Below are positions 10,432-37,235 of a DNA stretch of 64,000 nt, piece after piece. This DNA is from an uncultured Acidimicrobiia bacterium. Its GTDB lineage: Bacteria > Actinomycetota > Acidimicrobiia > Spongiisociales > Spongiisociaceae. The stretch spans positions 1,483,724-1,547,723 of the forward strand of contig OY282370.1 in NCBI GenBank assembly GCA_958295745.1, in the 5' to 3' direction. The translations under genes and the position numbers were made by a program. The notes under the pieces were generated by a model. The model had not been told where the DNA came from. It did no database searches and saw only the letters and a program-made list of their open reading frames with translations. How positions within the stretch are numbered: position 1 is the stretch's first letter; every line of letters starts with the position of its first letter.

Positions 10432-11403
10432 ATGACTACAACCGTGGCGGCCCGGCCGTCGATGGCGGATGCGGAGAAGGCGGCCGGGGCGGTGGCCGGG
10501 GTGGGGGTGTCGGAGGTGTTGGTGTTCGGGTCGGTGGCCCGCGGTGAGGCCGGACCGCACAGCGATATCGATTTGGTGGCCGTCTACGACGATCTCGATT
10601 ATTCGACCCGGCGTGAGAGGTCGGCCGAACTGGGGCGGGTTGCTTCCGCCGCGGCGGGCCGTCGGGTGTTCGTGTATGTGACCGATTGGCCCGAGTGGAG
10701 CCGCCGCACCAGCGAGGTGGCTTCTTCTTTGGAGAATGCGATCACTGTCGATGCAGTTGCGTTGTACCGGCGGGAACCGAACGGTGTGCGCTGGGGGAAG
10801 GAGATCGGTATGCCCGCTACGGACAGGGAGGAGGCCGCCGCCCGTCTCGACAACGCCCGCCGCGCCCTCTTTGGTCTGGACGACCACTTGGTGATGAGCC
10901 GGGCAGAAAGGCATGCGCTGAAGGACGGCGATCCCGGTTACTACCTGTTGGGGATGCGGGACCGTATGTGCGCTCTGTGCGCCGACGCTCAGATGGCGGT
11001 GGAGACTAGCTTCAAGGCTCTGATCCATCTTCGAGGCGAACGTCCCGCCCGCACCCACGACCTCGGTAAATTGTTGGAGGCCTTTCCCGCTTCCCGGCGT
11101 GATCCTCTCAGGAGGATGTTCGTAGAGATCACCCCGGAGGAAGCTTCGATGTGGCGCGAGGCGGGCGCGTACGAATATGTCGACTGGTCTCTGGAAAGCC
11201 TTGTGATCCACGCCTACCGCATGGCCCGCACAGCTGTCGCAATATCCCGTTACGCAGCCGGTTTCCTGCCCGAAACGGAATCCGCTCGCCTCGTCTACAA
11301 GGCGGCCGTAACGGCCGCCGCAACACTCGACGGGTGGGACCTCACCGCCGGAGACCCCTTCGATATGACAGGCCAGCCTCCTCTGCCCGACCCCCTCTCG
11401 TAG
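10432..11403 (+). CDS. Single-chain nucleotidyltransferase-HEPN protein
   Basis: 323 residues with two domains. Residues 29-52 form the minimal nucleotidyltransferase motif, FGSVARGE followed by D45-x-D47 (HSDIDLVAV). Residues about 135-270 are helical and match a HEPN domain, with the R-x4-H motif at R204 to H209 (RPARTHDL). MNT and HEPN are usually two adjacent genes forming a toxin-antitoxin pair, in which the transferase modifies and silences the HEPN RNase. Here they are fused. It lies divergent from the amidohydrolase and 5' of the phosphotriesterase-like gene. Alternatively it is an aminoglycoside-type or DNA-polymerase-beta-like transferase with a helical tail. Confidence 0.75.
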   Translation: MTTTVAARPSMADAEKAAGAVAGVGVSEVLVFGSVARGEAGPHSDIDLVAVYDDLDYSTRRERSAELGRVASAAAGRRVFVYVTDWPEWSRRTSEVASSLENAITVDAVALYRREPNGVRWGKEIGMPATDREEAAARLDNARRALFGLDDHLVMSRAERHALKDGDPGYYLLGMRDRMCALCADAQMAVETSFKALIHLRGERPARTHDLGKLLEAFPASRRDPLRRMFVEITPEEASMWREAGAYEYVDWSLESLVIHAYRMARTAVAISRYAAGFLPETESARLVYKAAVTAAATLDGWDLTAGDPFDMTGQPPLPDPLS

Positions 11404-11494
11404 CGGCGGAAGCCTCCCGCACCACCATCCCCTCGGGCCGCCGTCTAGAGTCGGGAGTACTGGACGCTTCGGAGGTCGGAGAAGGGAGGGCGCC

Positions 11495-12541
11495 ATCGAA
11501 GACCAAGGTCGCATCATCACCGTAAACGGCCCGATCGAACCCGGGCAGCTCGGTGTGACGCTGATGCACGAGCACCTATTGTTCACGTGCCTGATGTGGT
11601 TCCTGGAGGGCGACCACCGGGGTCTGGGTTCCGATTCGTATGCGCCGGTCACCCACCACAACGCCGCTCTGCTCCGGGAGTTCCCGTACCGCAGCCGCGA
11701 CAATCTGATCAACACCGACTGGCGGCTGACCTCCCAGGAGCTCCGCCGCTTCAAGATGACTTTGGGCCGCAGCGTGGTCGATTCCTCGAATCTGGGCCTG
11801 GGCCGGGACGGGTGGGGGCTCAAGAAGATCGCCGACGACGTGGGGATCAACATCATCTCGGGCACCGGGTACTACGTGGACCACGCCCACCCCTGGTACG
11901 TGGATTCCATGAGCGCCGAGGAGCTGGCCAAAGGCATGATCGGGGACATCACCGCCGGGGCCGACGGAACCGACATCCGCTGCGGGATCATCGGGGAGAT
12001 CGGAACCTCCGATCCGGTCACGCCCAACGAGTGGAAGGTGCTGGAGGCGGCGGCCATCACCCACCACGCCACCGGGGCGGCCATCCAGATCCACGCCCTC
12101 CACGAGCAGCGCCTGATGCCCTCCATCCTCGATTTCCTGATCACGGAGCACGGGGTCCACCCCGGCCGGGTGATCGCCGGTCATCTGGATCTCTGCACGG
12201 ACGATCGGCCCTACCTGGAGCAGGTGGCCGGCTATGACACGTTCCTGGAGATCGACGGCTGGGGCCACCCCTGCCCGACCGACGGTGTCTACGTCTCCGA
12301 CGACGACCGGATGGCGACCGTGGAGTGGATGGTGGCGGAAGGCCTCGGCGGCAAACTCCTGTTCTCCCACGACATCGGCCTGAAAGCCCGACTGTCCGGT
12401 TTCGGCGGCCCCGGCTGGGACCACATCATGAACGTGATCCTCCCCTCCCTGAAAGCCCGAGGCATGCCCATCGCCACCCTCAACCAGTTCGTGATAGACA
12501 ACCCCGCCCGAGTCCTGCCCCTCAGCCTCGAAGCCGAATGA
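11495..12541 (+). CDS. Phosphotriesterase-family hydrolase, probable ATC start
   Basis: The amidohydrolase-fold phosphotriesterase family. The metal site is seen as H-x-H in LMHEHLL, IGEIG (Glu where some members have carboxylated Lys), IQIHA, IAGHLDL and SHDIGLKARLS. A GTG at 11555 would start the protein only three residues before H-x-H. The frame upstream encodes RIITVNGPIEPGQLG, the normal first strand, and contains no ATG, GTG or TTG. An ATC at 11495 lies 4-5 bases after a strong GGGAGGG, so I take that as the start (348 residues). If an ATC start is wrong, the gene is 11555-12541 with a missing first strand. The natural substrate may be a lactone or phosphoester. Confidence 0.75.
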   Translation: MEDQGRIITVNGPIEPGQLGVTLMHEHLLFTCLMWFLEGDHRGLGSDSYAPVTHHNAALLREFPYRSRDNLINTDWRLTSQELRRFKMTLGRSVVDSSNLGLGRDGWGLKKIADDVGINIISGTGYYVDHAHPWYVDSMSAEELAKGMIGDITAGADGTDIRCGIIGEIGTSDPVTPNEWKVLEAAAITHHATGAAIQIHALHEQRLMPSILDFLITEHGVHPGRVIAGHLDLCTDDRPYLEQVAGYDTFLEIDGWGHPCPTDGVYVSDDDRMATVEWMVAEGLGGKLLFSHDIGLKARLSGFGGPGWDHIMNVILPSLKARGMPIATLNQFVIDNPARVLPLSLEAE

Positions 12542-12579
12542 TTTCATCGTCCGATTCAGGAGGCTCGCGTCTCACGGAC

Positions 12580-12585
12580 TATACT
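12580..12585 (+). promoter_or_regulatory. Candidate -10 box of the methylase/ATPase operon
   Basis: TATACT lies 15 bases before the ATG of the GHKL ATPase gene, in a short AT-rich patch after a GC-rich gene. Transcription would begin near 12592, so the message would be almost leaderless. No ribosome binding site is seen. A five-codon micro-ORF (ATG at 12593, stop 12605-12607) overlaps the main start. No good -35 box is visible. Confidence 0.4.
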
Positions 12586-12599
12586 TTGATTGATGTCTG

Positions 12600-14507
12600 A
12601 TGAATGACCCCGCTGTTAAATGGGTTTGGGAGAGGACGGACGCGGCGCGTAGCGGTGCCGCCGGTGACCTCGCCAGGCTCTTCAGAAACGAGCCCGTCAA
12701 GCAACCTGGTGTTCTGGCTATAGGTGCCCCCTCTGCTCAGGCCACAGTGTTGGCCCGTGAAGTCATCCAGAACTCCTGGGACGCAGCCGACGACCTGCGC
12801 GAGGATCTCAGGAGAGAGCAACTGCGAGCCGAGCGGCGCGGTCGGTCTCTTGGTATCAGTCCTTTCGTTCCTCCACCTTTTGAGATACGCTTTGACTTCC
12901 GTACCGCCGTTGGGTCCACCAAAGACGAGATCGTCCGGCGGCTTGCGCTGAACGAACACGCGAATCGTCTGGGGGGGGGGGTTGACCGTAGAAAGGTCGG
13001 TCTGAGAAAGGACGATTGCCTAGGAACCCTGGGGGACTCCGATGCTGAGTTGGCCTACATGGTGATCGAAGAGGAGGCGGCTTCTGGTATGTACGGTCCC
13101 TGGAGAGGGGATGAGTCGAAGATGTACAGGGCGCTTTGCGCCATTGGAGTCACCTCTGGTACCGAGGGCAGGGGCGGTTCCTATGGTTACGGCAAGGCGG
13201 GCATGATCCGAGGTTCCGCCACCCGGACAGTGGTCGCCTACACCTGCTTTAGGGAACGAAGGGACGACCCGGGTGCCACGCGGCGGTTGCTCGGTATGAC
13301 CTATTGGGGTCGGCACGACTATTGCGGCGAAGGGTTTACCGGGTTCGCCAGATTCGGAAAAGAGAAGAATGGTGGTGAGGTGGTCCCGTTCGAAAACGAG
13401 GAAGCCGACGAGCAGGCCGCCATGTTGGGCCTGAGGGCCCGAAGCCCGGACGAGATAGATCAGCTGGGGACCACCTTTCTGTTGATCGAACCCACCGTGC
13501 AGCCCGAAGAGTTGATCACCGCCATTGAACGCTCGTGGTGGCCGGCTTTGGAAGAGCGTCGCCTTCAGTTCAATACATATGTTCAAACACCGGCCGGGGC
13601 AGTACTACACCCCAGGCCGCGTCATGATCCTGTCCTCCGTACTTTTATAGATGCCTATGAAAATGCAACGCTTCCTGCCGCTATAGGGGAAGGTAGGAGA
13701 GGAGAATTCCCTGGTCTCGGTACTATTGGATTGGTTTCCGACATTGAGGGTTGGTCGTATGCCGAACAGATCGGAGATACTGAAGAACAAGGTATAGACC
13801 ACTGCAGCCTTGTTGCTCTCATGCGTAAGCCGCATATGGTTGTTGAATACTTGAAGGTGAGCAGAGCGACTCCACCCCATGTACGCGGTGCCTTCGTTGC
13901 TGATTTCAGTATCAACGATGCTCTTCGTGAGACTGAGCCGAAGGGGCATGATGCATGGGACTACAAAGCAGGCGACACAGACGAGGAGTCGAGGAGGACA
14001 GCCAAGAAAGTCCGTGACCGAATAGCAGAGAAGGTTAGGCGGTACAAGAAGGAGTTGAAGCCTCCTTCCCCACCTGTTGAAGGTGTAGTGCTTCCAGAGT
14101 TCGACCGACTTATGAGAAAGCTCATGTCGGGTCCGATTAAAGACCGTCCAGACCTCTCTCCTCGATTGGTCACCATACGTCCTGACTTCAATTTGGAAGT
14201 CGCCGGTCCGGACGAAGTACGCGTGGTCGGGAAGGCGGAGTTTGGTTTGAGTGAGCACTTTGAGGGAGAAGCAGCCTGGATTGAGGTATCTATCCGTTAC
14301 TCGTTCGTGGAGGACGATCGTGCCGGGAAGCGGGCGGAGCTTGAGGTTGTTCCGCCCGTAGACTTTGTGGAAATCAACGGGAAATACCGCGGAATTATCC
14401 GATCCCGTGACCAGGTGTTGTTCAAGTTCAAGACCCAACCATATCGGGCGGATTGGTCCGGCCGTCTGATCACAGGGGCGGAAATAGTGAATGAAGAAGA
14501 GGCATGA
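12600..14507 (+). CDS. GHKL (HSP90/MutL/MORC-like) ATPase of a methylase-linked system
   Basis: 635 residues. The N box of the GHKL ATP-binding fold is at residues 53-64 (REVIQNSWDAAD, with E54, N58 and D61), a G1-like segment at about 155-166 (VIEEEAASGMYG), and a glycine-rich lid at 192-202 (GGSYGYGKAGM). The C-terminal half has no recognised domain. GHKL ATPases of this type occur with DNA methylases, Vsr nucleases and helicases in predicted restriction systems (the MutL/MORC-like groups described by comparative genomics). Four genes follow with overlapping ends, so this opens a five-gene operon. An 11-G tract at 12971-12981, at codons 123-127, could switch the gene off by slippage. Confidence 0.8.
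   Translation: MNDPAVKWVWERTDAARSGAAGDLARLFRNEPVKQPGVLAIGAPSAQATVLAREVIQNSWDAADDLREDLRREQLRAERRGRSLGISPFVPPPFEIRFDFRTAVGSTKDEIVRRLALNEHANRLGGGVDRRKVGLRKDDCLGTLGDSDAELAYMVIEEEAASGMYGPWRGDESKMYRALCAIGVTSGTEGRGGSYGYGKAGMIRGSATRTVVAYTCFRERRDDPGATRRLLGMTYWGRHDYCGEGFTGFARFGKEKNGGEVVPFENEEADEQAAMLGLRARSPDEIDQLGTTFLLIEPTVQPEELITAIERSWWPALEERRLQFNTYVQTPAGAVLHPRPRHDPVLRTFIDAYENATLPAAIGEGRRGEFPGLGTIGLVSDIEGWSYAEQIGDTEEQGIDHCSLVALMRKPHMVVEYLKVSRATPPHVRGAFVADFSINDALRETEPKGHDAWDYKAGDTDEESRRTAKKVRDRIAEKVRRYKKELKPPSPPVEGVVLPEFDRLMRKLMSGPIKDRPDLSPRLVTIRPDFNLEVAGPDEVRVVGKAEFGLSEHFEGEAAWIEVSIRYSFVEDDRAGKRAELEVVPPVDFVEINGKYRGIIRSRDQVLFKFKTQPYRADWSGRLITGAEIVNEEEA
12971..12981 (+). repeat. Eleven-G homopolymer inside the GHKL ATPase gene
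   Basis: Eleven consecutive G bases, the longest homopolymer I noticed in the window, coding for Leu-Gly-Gly-Gly-Val with the flanking bases. Twelve Gs would place TGA immediately after the tract. Ten Gs would reach TGA eight codons later. It therefore has the form of a contingency (phase-variation) tract. A sequencing length error cannot be excluded. Confidence 0.8.
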
Positions 14508-15502
14508 ACCGCGAAGTTCGTACGGTCCGTCCTTTCCAGGTTCCCTATCACCTCGCCCGAGTTTTTGAAGGAGCGGTGTTCCGGTTCGGGAGAGATGAAT
14601 GTTATCCTGACGGTCGTATCAATATAGATATTGACGATTATCCTGATGAATATGGTCGGCGACCTGCAGAGCTGATCTGGGCATCTGATTCCGAGCTCGA
14701 GTATTTCAAGGCGATGCTCAATGAGGGAGCACAAGCCGCGGAGATTGATCCAGCCTGCTTGGCTTTATTGATCACAGTTAGCACTTCTTATCTCAAAATC
14801 ACCGAGGTAGTTTTCAGACATCCCCTTATGAACCTTGAAGGACTGACCAATACGGTGAATCTATCCGGCCCTCCCCGCCCCTCTGCTCTTCGCACCGGAT
14901 TCCATGGGGCGACCATCGTTGCCTATCTATTGTTGACGGAGGAGATCAAACCTTGTCCTCTCCGTCCTTGGCGCAAAGGTACCTGGTTGGCTCGGGCCGC
15001 TTTTAAGTTAGTGCCCCGTTCACGAGCCAGCCTGTTCCGACCGTCAGCACTTGATGACGAGCAACGCAATCGTCTAGGACTCCCGAAGGGCGTCGTGCGT
15101 TATCTGGATATGAGCGATCACGAGCCTTTGCTTCCGTACGAAGATTCTTATCCGCCTATTTTCTATGTCGACCAGGAACTACTGGCCTCGCTCGCCTCCC
15201 GCCCTCGAGCACCTATAAGTCGTTCTATTCAGGTTCAGCTGGTACAAGACTTTATATATGGAGTTCTCACCTCACCTGCTGTGCAGGAGGCCGATCTCGG
15301 TGAGATGATATGGACAGATATGAAAGACACTTTGTTGGGAAGGGTATTGAACCTCATCGCCGGGCCTGATGCCTCGGAGGAACGGCTAGGTATCCTAGTT
15401 CAATTAATCCGAGACGATCCGGCCAAGCTAGTGGCGCAGGCAGAACATGCCATCGGACTCCGCAAGGTGTTGTTGGCTACCTCTCGTGAGGGGCAGATAT
15501 GA
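14504..15502 (+). CDS. Hypothetical protein, second gene of the methylase-linked system
   Basis: 332 residues with no recognised domain. It begins with a charged, acidic region (INIDIDDYPDEYG near residue 40) and ends in a helical region. There is no signal peptide or clear membrane helix. Its ATG overlaps the ATPase stop (ATGA), and its own stop overlaps the next start (ATGA), so the products are made together. The gene is less GC-rich than the chromosome, as are the 3' end of the ATPase gene and the next gene. Genes in this position of methylase-Vsr clusters are often nucleases or adaptors, but no catalytic motif is visible. Confidence 0.65.
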   Translation: MNREVRTVRPFQVPYHLARVFEGAVFRFGRDECYPDGRINIDIDDYPDEYGRRPAELIWASDSELEYFKAMLNEGAQAAEIDPACLALLITVSTSYLKITEVVFRHPLMNLEGLTNTVNLSGPPRPSALRTGFHGATIVAYLLLTEEIKPCPLRPWRKGTWLARAAFKLVPRSRASLFRPSALDDEQRNRLGLPKGVVRYLDMSDHEPLLPYEDSYPPIFYVDQELLASLASRPRAPISRSIQVQLVQDFIYGVLTSPAVQEADLGEMIWTDMKDTLLGRVLNLIAGPDASEERLGILVQLIRDDPAKLVAQAEHAIGLRKVLLATSREGQI

Positions 15503-16206
15503 GATATCCGATCATTACCTTATCCGATTGCCAAAGGCTGGCGACAGAGATGAATAAGGGTACTTTTCCATCCCTAGAGAGATATACACAAGAGAGATAT
15601 ACACACCGGTTGAGTACTGGTGATGTAATGGATCAATCTGAGATCAAGAGGGCGGCCGTTCTAATACACGATATATTGGAAAAAAATCGGGCCAAATATG
15701 GTCGCGACCGGGACCGTTTAGAGGGCAGAGTTGCGCCGATCTTATATAGTGCCTTACACAAAGTGGACTTGGCGGTGCTAGACGACCCCGGTTTTTGGTG
15801 CTTTTTAAGTCTGAAATACTTTTGGAATTTTATTGCTTGGCGGGAGAAGAAGGCCTTCACGGAGGGAAACTATCTAAAATATGTGTGTGGCGAGAGAAGC
15901 ACTGAAAGTGTACTAACCCGTATGTACCTGCGTGTGCAGGCGCTGGGTGGCAGTGAATACGGGTCTATGGCCTCGGAAGTTCCGATGGCGACAGACTTCT
16001 GGCGGAGCCACATCATCCGGGTCAGGACAGGAACGGCTCCCTCCCTTACCAGAGCCTTCGTAGAGCGGCAACGGGACGATCGACTCAACACCCCCGAACT
16101 TCGGCAGTTCGCCCGGAGATTGAATCGGACCTGGACGAATATCCTTTTGAACATCTATGACGACGAAGAGGCTCGACAACTGATAGAAGAGCTATGGACG
16201 AGGTAG
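15499..16206 (+). CDS. Hypothetical protein, DUF6339-like, third gene of the system
   Basis: 235 residues, helical and basic. The C-terminal part (WRSHIIRVRTGTAPSL, then LNRTWTNILLNIYDDEEAR) recalls DUF6339 proteins, which I remember as neighbours of cytosine methylases in actinomycetes; this is from memory and unverified. It overlaps the gene before it by four bases and the methylase by 13. A perfect 15-base tandem duplication at 15576-15605 encodes ERYTQ-ERYTH. AT-rich compared with the methylase that follows. Function unknown. Confidence 0.65.
   Translation: MRYPIITLSDCQRLATEMNKGTFPSLERYTQERYTHRLSTGDVMDQSEIKRAAVLIHDILEKNRAKYGRDRDRLEGRVAPILYSALHKVDLAVLDDPGFWCFLSLKYFWNFIAWREKKAFTEGNYLKYVCGERSTESVLTRMYLRVQALGGSEYGSMASEVPMATDFWRSHIIRVRTGTAPSLTRAFVERQRDDRLNTPELRQFARRLNRTWTNILLNIYDDEEARQLIEELWTR
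15576..15605 (+). repeat. 15-base tandem duplication inside the third system gene
   Basis: Two exact copies of AGAGAGATATACACA side by side. As 15 is a multiple of three, gain or loss of a copy changes protein length by five residues (E-R-Y-T-Q/H) without a frameshift. Confidence 0.9.
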
Positions 16207-17507
16207 CCGAAGCCTTCGCCCTTGACGGTTCCCTACTGAACCACCACCTCAGAGTAGGTGATGCCGTCGTCCGATCGTCTGTGGAGGTGGACTCGTTCGC
16301 TTCCAATGGGGATCCCAAGGGTGTATGGTGGAAGTCATATATGGCCGGAGCGGTTCCTACCCCGGTAGAAGGGCCTGCTCCTGTCCTGAGGGTGGTTGAC
16401 CTCTTCAGCGGAGCAGGCGGTCTCGCGCTTGGCGTTCGGCAGTTGGCCGCCGACATGGGCCGGAAGGTGGTTACCGAGCTGATCGTCGATCAGGATGCCG
16501 CCGCCAACGCGGTCTATGCGGCCAATCACGACACGCGGCTTCGGTCCAAGGCTTCGGTCAGCTCCCTGGTGGACTTCCGCCTCCGGGGTTGGGAGGACGC
16601 CGCCGCCTTCGTGTACCCACCCGAGGTGCTCGACTCCGCGATCGCTGAAGCAACCCAGGCTGTCGATCTCCTTATCGCCGGCCCGCCCTGCCAGGGCAAC
16701 TCCAACCTCAACAACCACTCCCGCCGTAACGACAAGCGAAACGAGCTCTACCTGACCGTACCTGCCTTCGCGGTCGCGGTGGGCGCTCGCAACGTCGTCA
16801 TCGAGAACGTTCAGGGGGTGATACACGACCGCTCCCGGGTGGTCCAGACGGCGGAGCGGTTATTCGAGGCGGCCGGGTACCGGGTGACCACCGGGGTGCT
16901 GGCCGCCCACACACTGGGATGGCCGCAGACCCGCCGCCGTTTCTTTATGGTTGCCAGCCTAGACAGCCACCCGATACCCCTCGCAGAAGTCGAACGAGCA
17001 TTGTCCGACCCTCAGCCGCGGTCGGTTCTGTGGGCGATCGGCGGTCTGGAAACCCTAGGATCCAAAGACGTTTTGGATCAGCCCACCGGGCACAACCACG
17101 AGAACCAGGACCGGATCGACTGGTTGTTCGACAACGACGAGTACGACCTGCCTCTATCCGAGCGCCCGGAATGCCACAAGGACGGCACTACATACCGTTC
17201 CGTCTACGGCCGGATGAAACCGAGCGATCCGGCGCCCACTATCACCACGGGGTTCATGTCACCGGGCCGGGGGCGTTTTACACATCCGACCGAGCGGCGC
17301 ACCCTCACCGCCCGAGAGGCCGCCGTCATCCAAGGATTTCCATACGGCTATCGCTTCGTGACGGACCCGAGGAACCCGCCTACTCGTTCCCAGCTCGCCA
17401 AATGGATAGGAGACGCGGTGCCGATGCCGCTCGGCTACGCCGCCGCGCTGTCTGTTCTGGGACCGGAAATCACCTCCAGACCTAACCGTGATGGATCTAC
17501 GGAATAG
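16194..17507 (+). CDS. DNA (cytosine-5) methyltransferase
   Basis: 437 residues. Motif I is VVDLFSGAGGLALG near residue 66, motif IV with the catalytic Cys is GPPCQGNSN near 165, motif VI is ENVQG near 204, and motif VIII is QTRRRFFM near 245. Motifs IX and X lie in TLTAREAAVIQGFP and AKWIGDAVPMPLGYA. The N-terminal 60 residues are an extra leader. The target recognition region (about 280-350) carries GTTYRSVYGRMKPSDPAPTITTGF. All catalytic motifs are intact. It would methylate cytosine at an unknown site and protect the host. It overlaps the unknown gene before it and the Vsr gene after it. Confidence 0.93.
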   Translation: MDEVAEAFALDGSLLNHHLRVGDAVVRSSVEVDSFASNGDPKGVWWKSYMAGAVPTPVEGPAPVLRVVDLFSGAGGLALGVRQLAADMGRKVVTELIVDQDAAANAVYAANHDTRLRSKASVSSLVDFRLRGWEDAAAFVYPPEVLDSAIAEATQAVDLLIAGPPCQGNSNLNNHSRRNDKRNELYLTVPAFAVAVGARNVVIENVQGVIHDRSRVVQTAERLFEAAGYRVTTGVLAAHTLGWPQTRRRFFMVASLDSHPIPLAEVERALSDPQPRSVLWAIGGLETLGSKDVLDQPTGHNHENQDRIDWLFDNDEYDLPLSERPECHKDGTTYRSVYGRMKPSDPAPTITTGFMSPGRGRFTHPTERRTLTAREAAVIQGFPYGYRFVTDPRNPPTRSQLAKWIGDAVPMPLGYAAALSVLGPEITSRPNRDGSTE

Positions 17508-17946
17508 AACTCTGCCGCCGCCGTCTTCACCCTCGGCCAGCAGCGAGGCGGTTCGCCGGAGGATGGTCAACACTCCCCGGCGGGACACGCCCTTCGAGAT
17601 GCGGGTCCGGCGGATACTCCACGCCAGGGGGTTCCGCTACCGGGTCGATCGGCCGATGCCCGGCGTGACTCGCTCCCGCCCGGATGTGGTCTTCCCCACC
17701 GAGCGGATAGCCGTCTACTTGGACGGCTGCTTCTGGCACTCGTGCCCCATCCACGGCACCATGCCCGCCGCCGGCCGGGAGTGGTGGGCCGCCAAGCTCC
17801 AGGCGAACATCGAGCGCGACCGCCGCCACGGCGAGGAACTGGAGGCAGCCGGCTGGCTGGCTGCGAGATTCTGGGAGCACGAGGATCCCCACGACATCGC
17901 CGACGAGATCGCAGCCATCGTCGCCGCCCGCCGGATGGAGTTATAG
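17488..17946 (+). CDS. vsr: Vsr-type very short patch repair endonuclease
   Basis: 152 residues (GTG at 17488, or the ATG at 17491). Vsr nucleases nick at T:G mismatches left by deaminated 5-methylcytosine, and some relatives act as restriction nucleases. Family features: NTPRRDTPFEMRVRRILHARGF, SRPDVVFP with the metal-binding Asp, VYLDGCFWHSCPIHG with the zinc-site Cys and His, then WWAAKLQANIERDRRH. It overlaps the methylase by 20 bases and ends the operon. Since no other nuclease is visible in the operon, this could be the restriction effector as well as a repair enzyme. Confidence 0.9.
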   Translation: MMDLRNRTLPPPSSPSASSEAVRRRMVNTPRRDTPFEMRVRRILHARGFRYRVDRPMPGVTRSRPDVVFPTERIAVYLDGCFWHSCPIHGTMPAAGREWWAAKLQANIERDRRHGEELEAAGWLAARFWEHEDPHDIADEIAAIVAARRMEL

Positions 17947-18182
17947 CGGTATATCCAGGCCGGACATACAGACCGGTATATTTTCCGGTATGAAATCCAA
18001 TCGTTTTTCCATCAGCGAAGGCGGGATCGTCGTATGCGGGGCGTATGCGGATAGCCGAGTTCGGCGGCTTCGCCGATGTAGACCGGGCGGCGGAGATACT
18101 GCCGCTCAGGCAGGGGCTGCGGGTGGTGCGGTAGAAATCCGGGCGGGCGGTGCGCGCCCTCCGCGCCTGCCTGTAGGATGGG

Positions 18183-35260: not shown

Positions 35261-36559
35261 ATGGCTAGAATAGAAGGAATAAGGATCAAGAACTACCGGG
35301 TGTTGAAGGACATAACCCTTGGCAAACTCTGGACTGCACAAACGGCCCAACCATTGACTCCCCTGACGGTAGTTATAGGCAAAAATGGAGTAGGCAAAAG
35401 CTCCTTGTTCGATGCCTTTGGATTCTTAGCGGACTGTCTAAAGTTTGGTGTCGAAGAAGCTTGTGATATGCGAGAGAGGGGCGGGTTTCATCGAATTCGC
35501 TCTCAAGGAAGTAGGTTGCCTATTGAATTTGAGTTGTACTATCGTGAAAATTCAAGGTCTCGACCTATAACATATGAGGTTGCTATTGGAGAGGATGGTA
35601 AGGGACGCCCCTATGTAGTTCGGGAGCGCCTCCGCCAGCGACGCAGTGGGCAAACACACGGTAAACCCTATTCCTTCCTGATGATGAAAGGAGGCAAGGG
35701 GGTGGTTTGGAAAGGCAACGAGCCTGGATATCGTGAAGATAAAGAGGATGATCGGCACTCTAGAACCATGGAAGAAGAAATTGATAGAGCCTTGGATAAC
35801 TCAGCTCCGGACGAAAGCACAGAAAAAGAGTCGATTGAATTAGCGGATAAGCGCAAGCTAGGTATAGCGACCTTGGGTGCTTTGAAGCAACACCCGCGAA
35901 TATCCAATTTTCGTCGGTTTGTTGAAAGCTGGTATCTGAGTTATTTCACACCCGATGCAGCTCGAAGCTTGCCGAGAGCAGGACCTCAAAGACATCTGAA
36001 TATCCACGGTGATAATCTTGCTAATGTAGTACAGTTTATGGAGCGAGAACACCCAGATAAGTTCAGAACTATCCTATCTCGAATTGCCGAAAGAATCCCT
36101 GGAATAGATCATATATCTACGGAGCGTAGCCTGGATAATCGATTGCTTCTGTGTTTCAATGACCATGAATTTGAAGACTCTTTTTTTGCTCAACAAATGT
36201 CCGACGGTACATTAAAGCTTTTTGCCTATTTGATTATGTTAGAGGATCCCAATCCACCACCTTTTATATGTATTGAAGAGCCAGAGAATGGCCTCTACCA
36301 TAAACTATTAGAGCTCTTGGCCAATGAATTTAGAGACCATGCTCGTAGGAAACGAAACGCGCCTCAGATATTTGTTACGACGCATCAACCTTATTTAGTT
36401 AACGCCCTTAGTCCTGACGAAACTTGGATTCTAGAAAAGTTAAAGGGGTTCTCAACTATTCGGAGAGCCAGTGATATCCATATTGTCAATTTTATGGTTG
36501 AGGAAGAGTTACCGCTAGGCGGCCTTTGGTATAGTGGTTATCTGGATAAGAGAGGCTAA
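35261..36559 (+). CDS. AAA_21 ABC-type ATPase of a two-gene defence-like unit
   Basis: 432 residues. It begins MARIEGIRIKNYRVLKD, the RecF/SMC-like first strand. Walker A is GKNGVGKSS at 40-48, the signature-like QMSDGTLKLFAYL near 312, Walker B FICIEEPENGLYH near 337, and the switch His in FVTTHQPYLV near 370. The middle has a helical insert. The gene is AT-rich between GC-rich modC and the sulfurtransferase, so it was probably acquired. The next gene encodes a TOPRIM-like protein two bases downstream. This ATPase plus TOPRIM layout recalls split OLD or PARIS systems, which sense phage proteins and trigger nuclease or tRNA cleavage; that role is inferred. Confidence 0.87.
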   Translation: MARIEGIRIKNYRVLKDITLGKLWTAQTAQPLTPLTVVIGKNGVGKSSLFDAFGFLADCLKFGVEEACDMRERGGFHRIRSQGSRLPIEFELYYRENSRSRPITYEVAIGEDGKGRPYVVRERLRQRRSGQTHGKPYSFLMMKGGKGVVWKGNEPGYREDKEDDRHSRTMEEEIDRALDNSAPDESTEKESIELADKRKLGIATLGALKQHPRISNFRRFVESWYLSYFTPDAARSLPRAGPQRHLNIHGDNLANVVQFMEREHPDKFRTILSRIAERIPGIDHISTERSLDNRLLLCFNDHEFEDSFFAQQMSDGTLKLFAYLIMLEDPNPPPFICIEEPENGLYHKLLELLANEFRDHARRKRNAPQIFVTTHQPYLVNALSPDETWILEKLKGFSTIRRASDIHIVNFMVEEELPLGGLWYSGYLDKRG

Positions 36560-36560
36560 A

Positions 36561-37235
36561 GTGCACATTGAAGTCCTGGTTGAAGATCAATCTGGGCAGA
36601 TAACAATTGATTATTTTTTAGAAAAAATTCTTGGAGAGAATAGATTTATTCATTCTTGGATTATTATCCCCTATAAGGGTGTAGGTAATATTCCTGAGAA
36701 TCTATATAGAGCCCCCGACCCTCGCCGCAGGCTTCTGTTGGAAATGTTGCCGAAGGCTTTGCGAGGTTATGGCCGTCGTTTTGATAGCATGGAGATATTT
36801 CAGGGGGTGATTGTAGTAGTAGATCTGGACAACAAGGATTGTATCAGGTTCAAACGGGAACTTCTTCAAATATTAAATACGTGTAATCCACGTCCAAAGG
36901 CTTTATTCAGGATAGCTATAGAAGAAACTGAATCCTGGCTACTAGGGGATGTTGAAGCAGTAAGGGCCGCTTATCCCCAAGCAAAGCGATCTATTCTGGA
37001 TAATTATGTACCTGACAGTATATGCGGTGCCTGGGAAGTGCTGGCGGATGCTGTCTATCCAGGAGGATCAGCGAAGTTGAAGAAAAAAGGCTATCCCGAG
37101 ATTGGCAGGGTAAAGTGTGAGTGGGCTGAAGAGATCGCTCCTCATATAGATATAGATCGGAACCGATCGAAGAGCTTTCAGGTGTTTTGTGAGGGGGTTA
37201 AGCGCCTTGTTGACGAAGAAGGCTTGGCCGAGTAG
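36561..37235 (+). CDS. DUF4276/TOPRIM-like protein, partner of the ATPase
   Basis: 224 residues from GTG at 36561, with AGAGG upstream; an ATG at 36534 within the ATPase gene would add nine residues. The fold resembles TOPRIM: E8 in VLVEDQS on the first strand, D88-x-D90 in VIVVVDLDN, and the IEETESWLLGD helix near 120, as seen in DUF4276. These acidic residues could bind the divalent metal for nuclease activity. It is AT-rich like its partner. The gene ends before a perfect inverted repeat at 37245-37279. Confidence 0.75.
   Translation: MHIEVLVEDQSGQITIDYFLEKILGENRFIHSWIIIPYKGVGNIPENLYRAPDPRRRLLLEMLPKALRGYGRRFDSMEIFQGVIVVVDLDNKDCIRFKRELLQILNTCNPRPKALFRIAIEETESWLLGDVEAVRAAYPQAKRSILDNYVPDSICGAWEVLADAVYPGGSAKLKKKGYPEIGRVKCEWAEEIAPHIDIDRNRSKSFQVFCEGVKRLVDEEGLAE

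Follow-up and report, generated by a model that had tools for sequence, protein, structure and literature searches.

A survey of 2008 predicted that GHKL-S5 ATPases of the paraMORC2 type function in restriction-modification, and its passages on these ATPases tie them to methylases and Vsr enzymes (Iyer, Abhiman and Aravind, PMC2292703). PADLOC lists a candidate defence system, PDC-M33, composed of proteins A, B and C, and in the Vibrio paraMORC3-Shedu protein VcSduA the GHKL glutamate is required for anti-phage activity (PMC12137116). Here we analyse a set of five genes, A to E, from an uncultured Acidimicrobiia bacterium (GCA_958295745.1, contig OY282370.1, positions 1,483,724 to 1,547,723). 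This whole stretch of 64,000 nucleotides is called the window, and coordinates refer to it unless another locus is named; the set lies at 12600-17946. Judged by its sequence, the set is a compact variant of the predicted kind of defence system, restriction-modification-like with no recognised restriction endonuclease. An earlier sequence-only reading had proposed an uncharacterised defence system and pointed to published predictions joining GHKL ATPases to methylases and Vsr. Such a prediction is indeed in print in the passages cited above, and the set is probably a system directed against foreign DNA; its kind had already been predicted, as A and C are kin of PDC-M33A and PDC-M33C and A has the paraMORC2 signature.

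The five genes and their products

Gene A (12600-14507, 635 amino acids) links the set to the predicted systems. Its GHKL motifs are RExxQNxxD (R53-D61), GxxGxGK (G193-K199) and GT (G290-T291), together with E446-x3-H450. Across 22 divergent A proteins, R53, E54, Q57, D61, G163, G193, G196, G198, S206, G290, R409, E446 and H450 were invariant, and N58, K199 and T291 were conserved in at least 90%. A matched the PADLOC model PDC-M33A with E = 1e-9 (35.6 bits), and hhalign comparison of a profile of four window-type A proteins with one of seven PDC-M33A-type proteins gave a probability of 98.7% (E = 1.7e-16). Pfam HATPase models did not match A, and a PDB sequence search with A found no credible relative; the GHKL label is therefore given because of the motifs and the homology to PDC-M33A. 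Since E446 and H450 are invariant alongside the GHKL motifs, A, by these residues, bears the published paraMORC2 signature (GHKL motifs plus ExxxH) of Iyer 2008. The motifs in the 22 relatives and the PDC-M33A homology bear out the first description of A as a MutL/MORC-like GHKL ATPase.

Genes B (14504-15502, 332 amino acids) and C (15499-16206, 235 amino acids) had both been called unknown, a description that holds for B and only in part for C. B matched nothing in Pfam, NCBIfam, PADLOC or PDB; against PDC-M33B it gave no PADLOC match and an hhalign probability of 0.1%. C exceeded the DUF6339 cut-off (PF19866, 24.7 bits versus 23.2) and was related to PDC-M33C both in PADLOC (E = 1.3e-4) and by profile comparison (E = 8e-4), which marks it as a divergent DUF6339 protein. 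PDB sequence searches with B and C found no credible relative. C is predicted to be mostly helical; the structure models, built from two-sequence alignments, were of low confidence, with a predicted local distance difference test score (pLDDT) of 45 for B and 44.6 for C. B is conserved in three relatives (L006, L007 and L010), and a similar-sized protein occupies its position, that of PDC-M33B, in every set compared. The three kinds of B protein (window-type, PDC-M33 and actinomycete) had no detectable homology with one another, and their equivalence across groups is positional only. Gene C also contains a perfect 15-nucleotide tandem duplication (15576-15605) that yields ERYTQERYTH within a stretch missing from relatives.

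Gene D (16194-17507, 437 amino acids) encodes a complete C5-cytosine DNA methylase (PF00145, E = 2.2e-36; PPCQ motif with the catalytic PCQ intact), with DruM2/DruM and MTase_II as its closest PADLOC models. Gene E (17488-17946, 152 amino acids, GTG start) encodes a Vsr-type endonuclease that scored above the cut-off of NCBIfam TIGR00632 and matched the PDB Vsr structures 1cw0, 1vsr and 1odg. Both products are thus as first described. D is the only full-length C5-methylase, and E the only Vsr free of internal stops, found in this genome. A decayed Vsr and C5-methylase pair, with one internal stop each, lies elsewhere in it (L091, L094; G000:C1 near 1930 kb).

Mismatch-recognition roles of the Vsr residues F67, W68 and W86 are known from published Vsr structures. 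Aligned with E. coli Vsr (1cw0), E has F82, W83 and W100 at these positions and keeps D51 and H69 as D66 and H84; it differs at H64 (D79) and T63 (L78). With the wedge aromatics and these two residues conserved, E appears suited to T:G repair. The host genome contains no MutL-type DNA_mis_repair domain (PF01119), and E therefore cannot depend on ordinary MutL. No cognate restriction endonuclease for D was recognised among the five proteins, the block ending with Vsr, and none of the five matched the DUF4263 (Shedu nuclease) domain.

Acquisition and relatives

A to E are all intact open reading frames on the + strand, with successive overlaps of 4, 4, 13 and 20 nucleotides, as the sequence-only reading had it. 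They lie between a phosphotriesterase-like gene and a cucumopine-synthase-like gene. In six genomes of the window's own family the aligned flanks are only 44-73 bp apart, and the extra ~5.6 kb in the window (about 12534-18173) contains A-E and no other gene. By this comparison, the set is a single horizontally acquired block inserted between metabolic genes. Neither target-site duplication nor terminal repeats were found at the ends of the block, and a promoter scan returned one site, below chance expectation.

Two genomes of the same order carry A-B-C-D-E in identical order (L006 in G001 and L007 in G022). Their proteins are approximately 45% (A), 35% (B), 50% (C), 57% (D) and 54% (E) identical to those of the window (overall 34-59%). 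This conserved order, along with insertion of the whole block in one event, upholds the view of the five genes as one unit. At L010, in a Thermoanaerobaculia genome, A-B-C-D are intact and the 21.9 kb examined contain no Vsr; this locus, the smallest set seen, might be inactive. Broken copies were found in L008 (G127) and on a Gemmatimonadetes contig (L011). Within the class, 4 of 148 genomes have B, this one included; in the phylum sample, 3 of 397 do. The proposal had been staked beforehand on the nearness of other defence genes, and both intact relatives have them: a PsyrT-like helicase and REase-ARP lie near L006, and GmrSD, an SLFN-type helicase and a NERD-kinase like PglW/PD-T4-6 lie near L007. 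L006 also has a 107-amino-acid open reading frame between D and Vsr (its positions 11374-11697), and its REase-ARP gene (PF22558), with an open reading frame lacking a Pfam family, directly follows Vsr (12230-13764).

The guanine-plus-cytosine (GC) content of the window genes is 0.57 for A, 0.53 for B, 0.50 for C, 0.63 for D and 0.69 for E. The dip in the middle is thus real. The composite origin drawn from it is unsupported: the block arrived as one, GC is even across the genes of L006, L007 and L010, and identities are similar for all genes, with L006-L007 the closest pair for each gene and pairwise identities ranking alike throughout. Gene conversion at the D-E end is conceivable.

Wider groups were reached with the DUF6339 model and with A of L012, an Acidimicrobiales contig. 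In a PDC-M33-type group, each of the three proteins matches its own PDC-M33 model strongly (368 bits for L012). Sets of this type occur on plasmids of Deinococcus, Lactococcus, Ligilactobacillus, Priestia, Paenarthrobacter, Planococcus, Arthrobacter and haloarchaea, where they often adjoin type II restriction genes, Shedu or AbiG; with the A-B-C triad on haloarchaeal plasmids L053, L054 and L029, the family spans bacteria and archaea. These plasmid sets surfaced only via L012-type A, plasmid searches with A, B and C of the window having returned no relatives. Viral contigs held no relatives of A, B or C, nor of the L012 A. The window's own genome contains a second, canonical PDC-M33 triad (L019 8489-12940; G000:C1 near 151 kb). 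Its A is split over two frames; B, C and a gene for an SspD-like PAPS reductase follow, and the surroundings include a PsyrT-like helicase and no methylase or Vsr.

In an actinomycete group (the order of G305), 33 of 199 genomes carry its type of B. Profile searches at the 21 loci inspected identified A and C at every one. All 21 have A-B-C with an active methylase and 20 have Vsr, a Z1 gene is present in only two, and no conserved separate restriction nuclease was recognised. Alongside the active methylase, L020, L021, L057-L061 and L063-L075 encode another protein resembling a C5-methylase. All 20 copies have LPRV(K/R) where the catalytic PCQ would stand, and the L021 copy is fused to the DUF6339 protein. 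Conserved and, by its sequence, inactive, this methylase may serve to read sites.

Association was counted in 41 distinct loci (6 window-type, 22 actinomycete including L021, and 13 of PDC-M33 type; L055 was omitted as a near copy of L024), homology being shown for A and C and B being assigned by position only. A C5-methylase lay within the examined stretch at 36 of the 41 (5 window-type, 22 actinomycete, 9 PDC-M33 type), and Vsr at 28 (4, 21 and 3, respectively). With two C5-methylase loci in this 3.31 Mb genome, a random stretch of ~17 kb holds a C5-methylase about 1% of the time. Related sets therefore occur mainly in methylase clusters, where the sequence-only reading had expected them. 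Triad and methylase occur without linked Vsr in L010 and L062, and triads without C5-methylase or Vsr nearby are L019, L023 and L024.

Three other loci of the window were noted. A nucleotidyltransferase-HEPN gene (10432-11403) lies upstream of the block; it is regarded as native because a homologue holds the same place in L086, which is without the block. About 17 kb downstream, an AT-rich island of two genes (35261-37235), encoding an AAA_21 ATPase and a DUF4276 protein, matches PADLOC HEC-01A/HEC-01B (PARIS-like) strongly and is a second candidate defence system. An AT-rich gene for an AAA_15-type ATPase (3-1424, - strand), cut by the window edge, has NsnB as its best PADLOC match.

Proposed function and alternatives

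We assign a probability of about 0.5 to the reading that A-E form a compact restriction-modification-like defence cassette acting as follows. D would mark self by methylating cytosines wherever its target site occurs in the host genome. Gene conservation and the behaviour of MutL, MORC and paraMORC3 suggest that A, B and C form an ATP-driven, DNA-engaging complex that would be kept off methylated host DNA and would close on incoming DNA lacking the methyl marks and disable it. A DNA looping model was proposed for MORC and paraMORC proteins in the sections that Iyer 2008 devotes to them (PMC2292703). The damaging step would be performed by the A-B-C complex itself, with B the first candidate for a hidden enzyme. 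As the cognate Vsr, E would repair T:G mismatches arising from deamination of 5-methylcytosine and would also help guard against methylase loss. E may thus stabilise D, because in Caulobacter a Vsr-like protein triggers a DNA-damage response when a solitary methylase is lost, making that loss costly (PMC12907096). Since L010 is intact without Vsr and the methylase is more constant than Vsr across loci, the core would be A-B-C plus methylase, with Vsr a frequent but dispensable partner.

Several points weigh against this reading. A literature search found no experimental report of defence for paraMORC2, PDC-M33 sets or DUF6339. None of A, B and C has a recognised nuclease motif, and the models of B and C are too poor to exclude one. 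Vsr accompanies four of the five window-type sets that keep the methylase and all but one of the 21 actinomycete loci. The counts come from loci collected by homology in a few taxa rather than from random sampling. Finally, the cassette in this genome is surrounded by metabolic genes rather than by a dense defence island.

The best-surviving rival makes Vsr the restriction effector: A-B-C would sense unmethylated DNA and recruit or activate E to nick or cut it in the style of MutL-MutH/Vsr. E is intact and the sole recognised nuclease of the set, Vsr is linked in more than half of the loci counted (28/41), and the relevant passages of Iyer 2008 note GHKL-nuclease pairing and cite a functional MutL-Vsr interaction (PMC2292703). 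The Caulobacter Vsr-like protein, whose DNA-damage response follows loss of a solitary methylase (PMC12907096), likewise fits such a role. We nevertheless consider it a tentative and rather unlikely alternative, given that L010 and L062 keep triad and methylase without linked Vsr, that only 3 of 13 PDC-M33-type loci have Vsr linked, that the wedge aromatics kept in E suit T:G repair, and that the host lacks a MutL-type DNA_mis_repair domain. The sequence-only reading had looked for the effector in Vsr or in one of the unknown proteins; the Vsr-free L010 and L062 weaken the first choice, and the second would fit the core set.

Doubtful, and argued by analogy, is restriction without cutting, in which A-B-C would clamp, compact or silence DNA lacking the marks of D and no nuclease would be needed. 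Eukaryotic MORC provides a precedent, as MORC2 clamps and compacts DNA in vitro (PMC12216690). The core A-B-C-D holds no recognised nuclease, as this alternative predicts, and B or C may still hide an enzyme.

It is also improbable that the set is what remains, incomplete or inactive, of a larger restriction system after loss of its helicase and nuclease (of Z1 and DUF4420 type, or one of type II). None of the five genes is broken and their overlaps are coupled, and because L007 and most actinomycete loci are also without a recognised separate nuclease in the set, the short form recurs. Nonetheless, L021 has Z1 and DUF4420 with triad, methylase and Vsr, plasmid relatives adjoin type II enzymes, REase-ARP comes just after Vsr in L006, and L008 and L011 are broken copies. 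Least probable is a repair or epigenetic unit, with D a solitary methylase, E its mismatch repair and A (with B and C) a MutL-like helper: a genome lacking PF01119, where D and E are the sole C5-methylase and Vsr without internal stops, would suit it, and Iyer 2008, in the part concerned, allows repair recruitment of some GHKL relatives (PMC2292703), but the patchy distribution of B and the block insertion, the defence genes adjoining relatives, and the triads with no C5-methylase or Vsr nearby (L019, L023, L024) speak against it.

Comparison with described systems

What is new here is a small, self-contained version of the predicted system (~5.3 kb) that has no helicase and no separate nuclease and arrived as one block; its compactness makes it a practical test object. 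Should A-B-C plus methylase protect without Vsr, either B or C would contain an unknown effector or a MORC-like ATPase would restrict without cutting. The latter would bear on the origin of eukaryotic MORC silencing.

Like a type II restriction-modification system, the set pairs a methylase for marking self with genes whose products could attack DNA without the mark, although no sequence-specific restriction endonuclease was found in the block. Like the Dcm-Vsr pair of E. coli, it has a Vsr gene directly after a C5-methylase gene within a single operon; here, three more genes precede and overlap the methylase. VcSduA also contains a GHKL ATPase of the paraMORC radiation, and its anti-phage role has been tested by mutation (PMC12137116). 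In that protein, however, a DUF4263 nuclease is fused to the ATPase; A lacks this domain, and the present set includes a methylase.

The PADLOC candidate PDC-M33 resembles the set in its A-B-C order with overlapping starts and in detectably related A and C (DUF6339) proteins. It differs in that A of the window reaches only 35.6 bits compared with 368 for L012, B is unrecognisable, and methylase and Vsr share the operon here. Because B fails its model, the set was not filed as PDC-M33 and is viewed as a divergent relative. The paraMORC2 systems differ in having a superfamily II (Z1-type) helicase and a novel RE-fold nuclease, neither of which stands beside A, and B and C are not named in the passages of Iyer 2008 on these systems (PMC2292703). 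The set nonetheless has their GHKL motifs, ExxxH signature and neighbourhood of methylase and Vsr.

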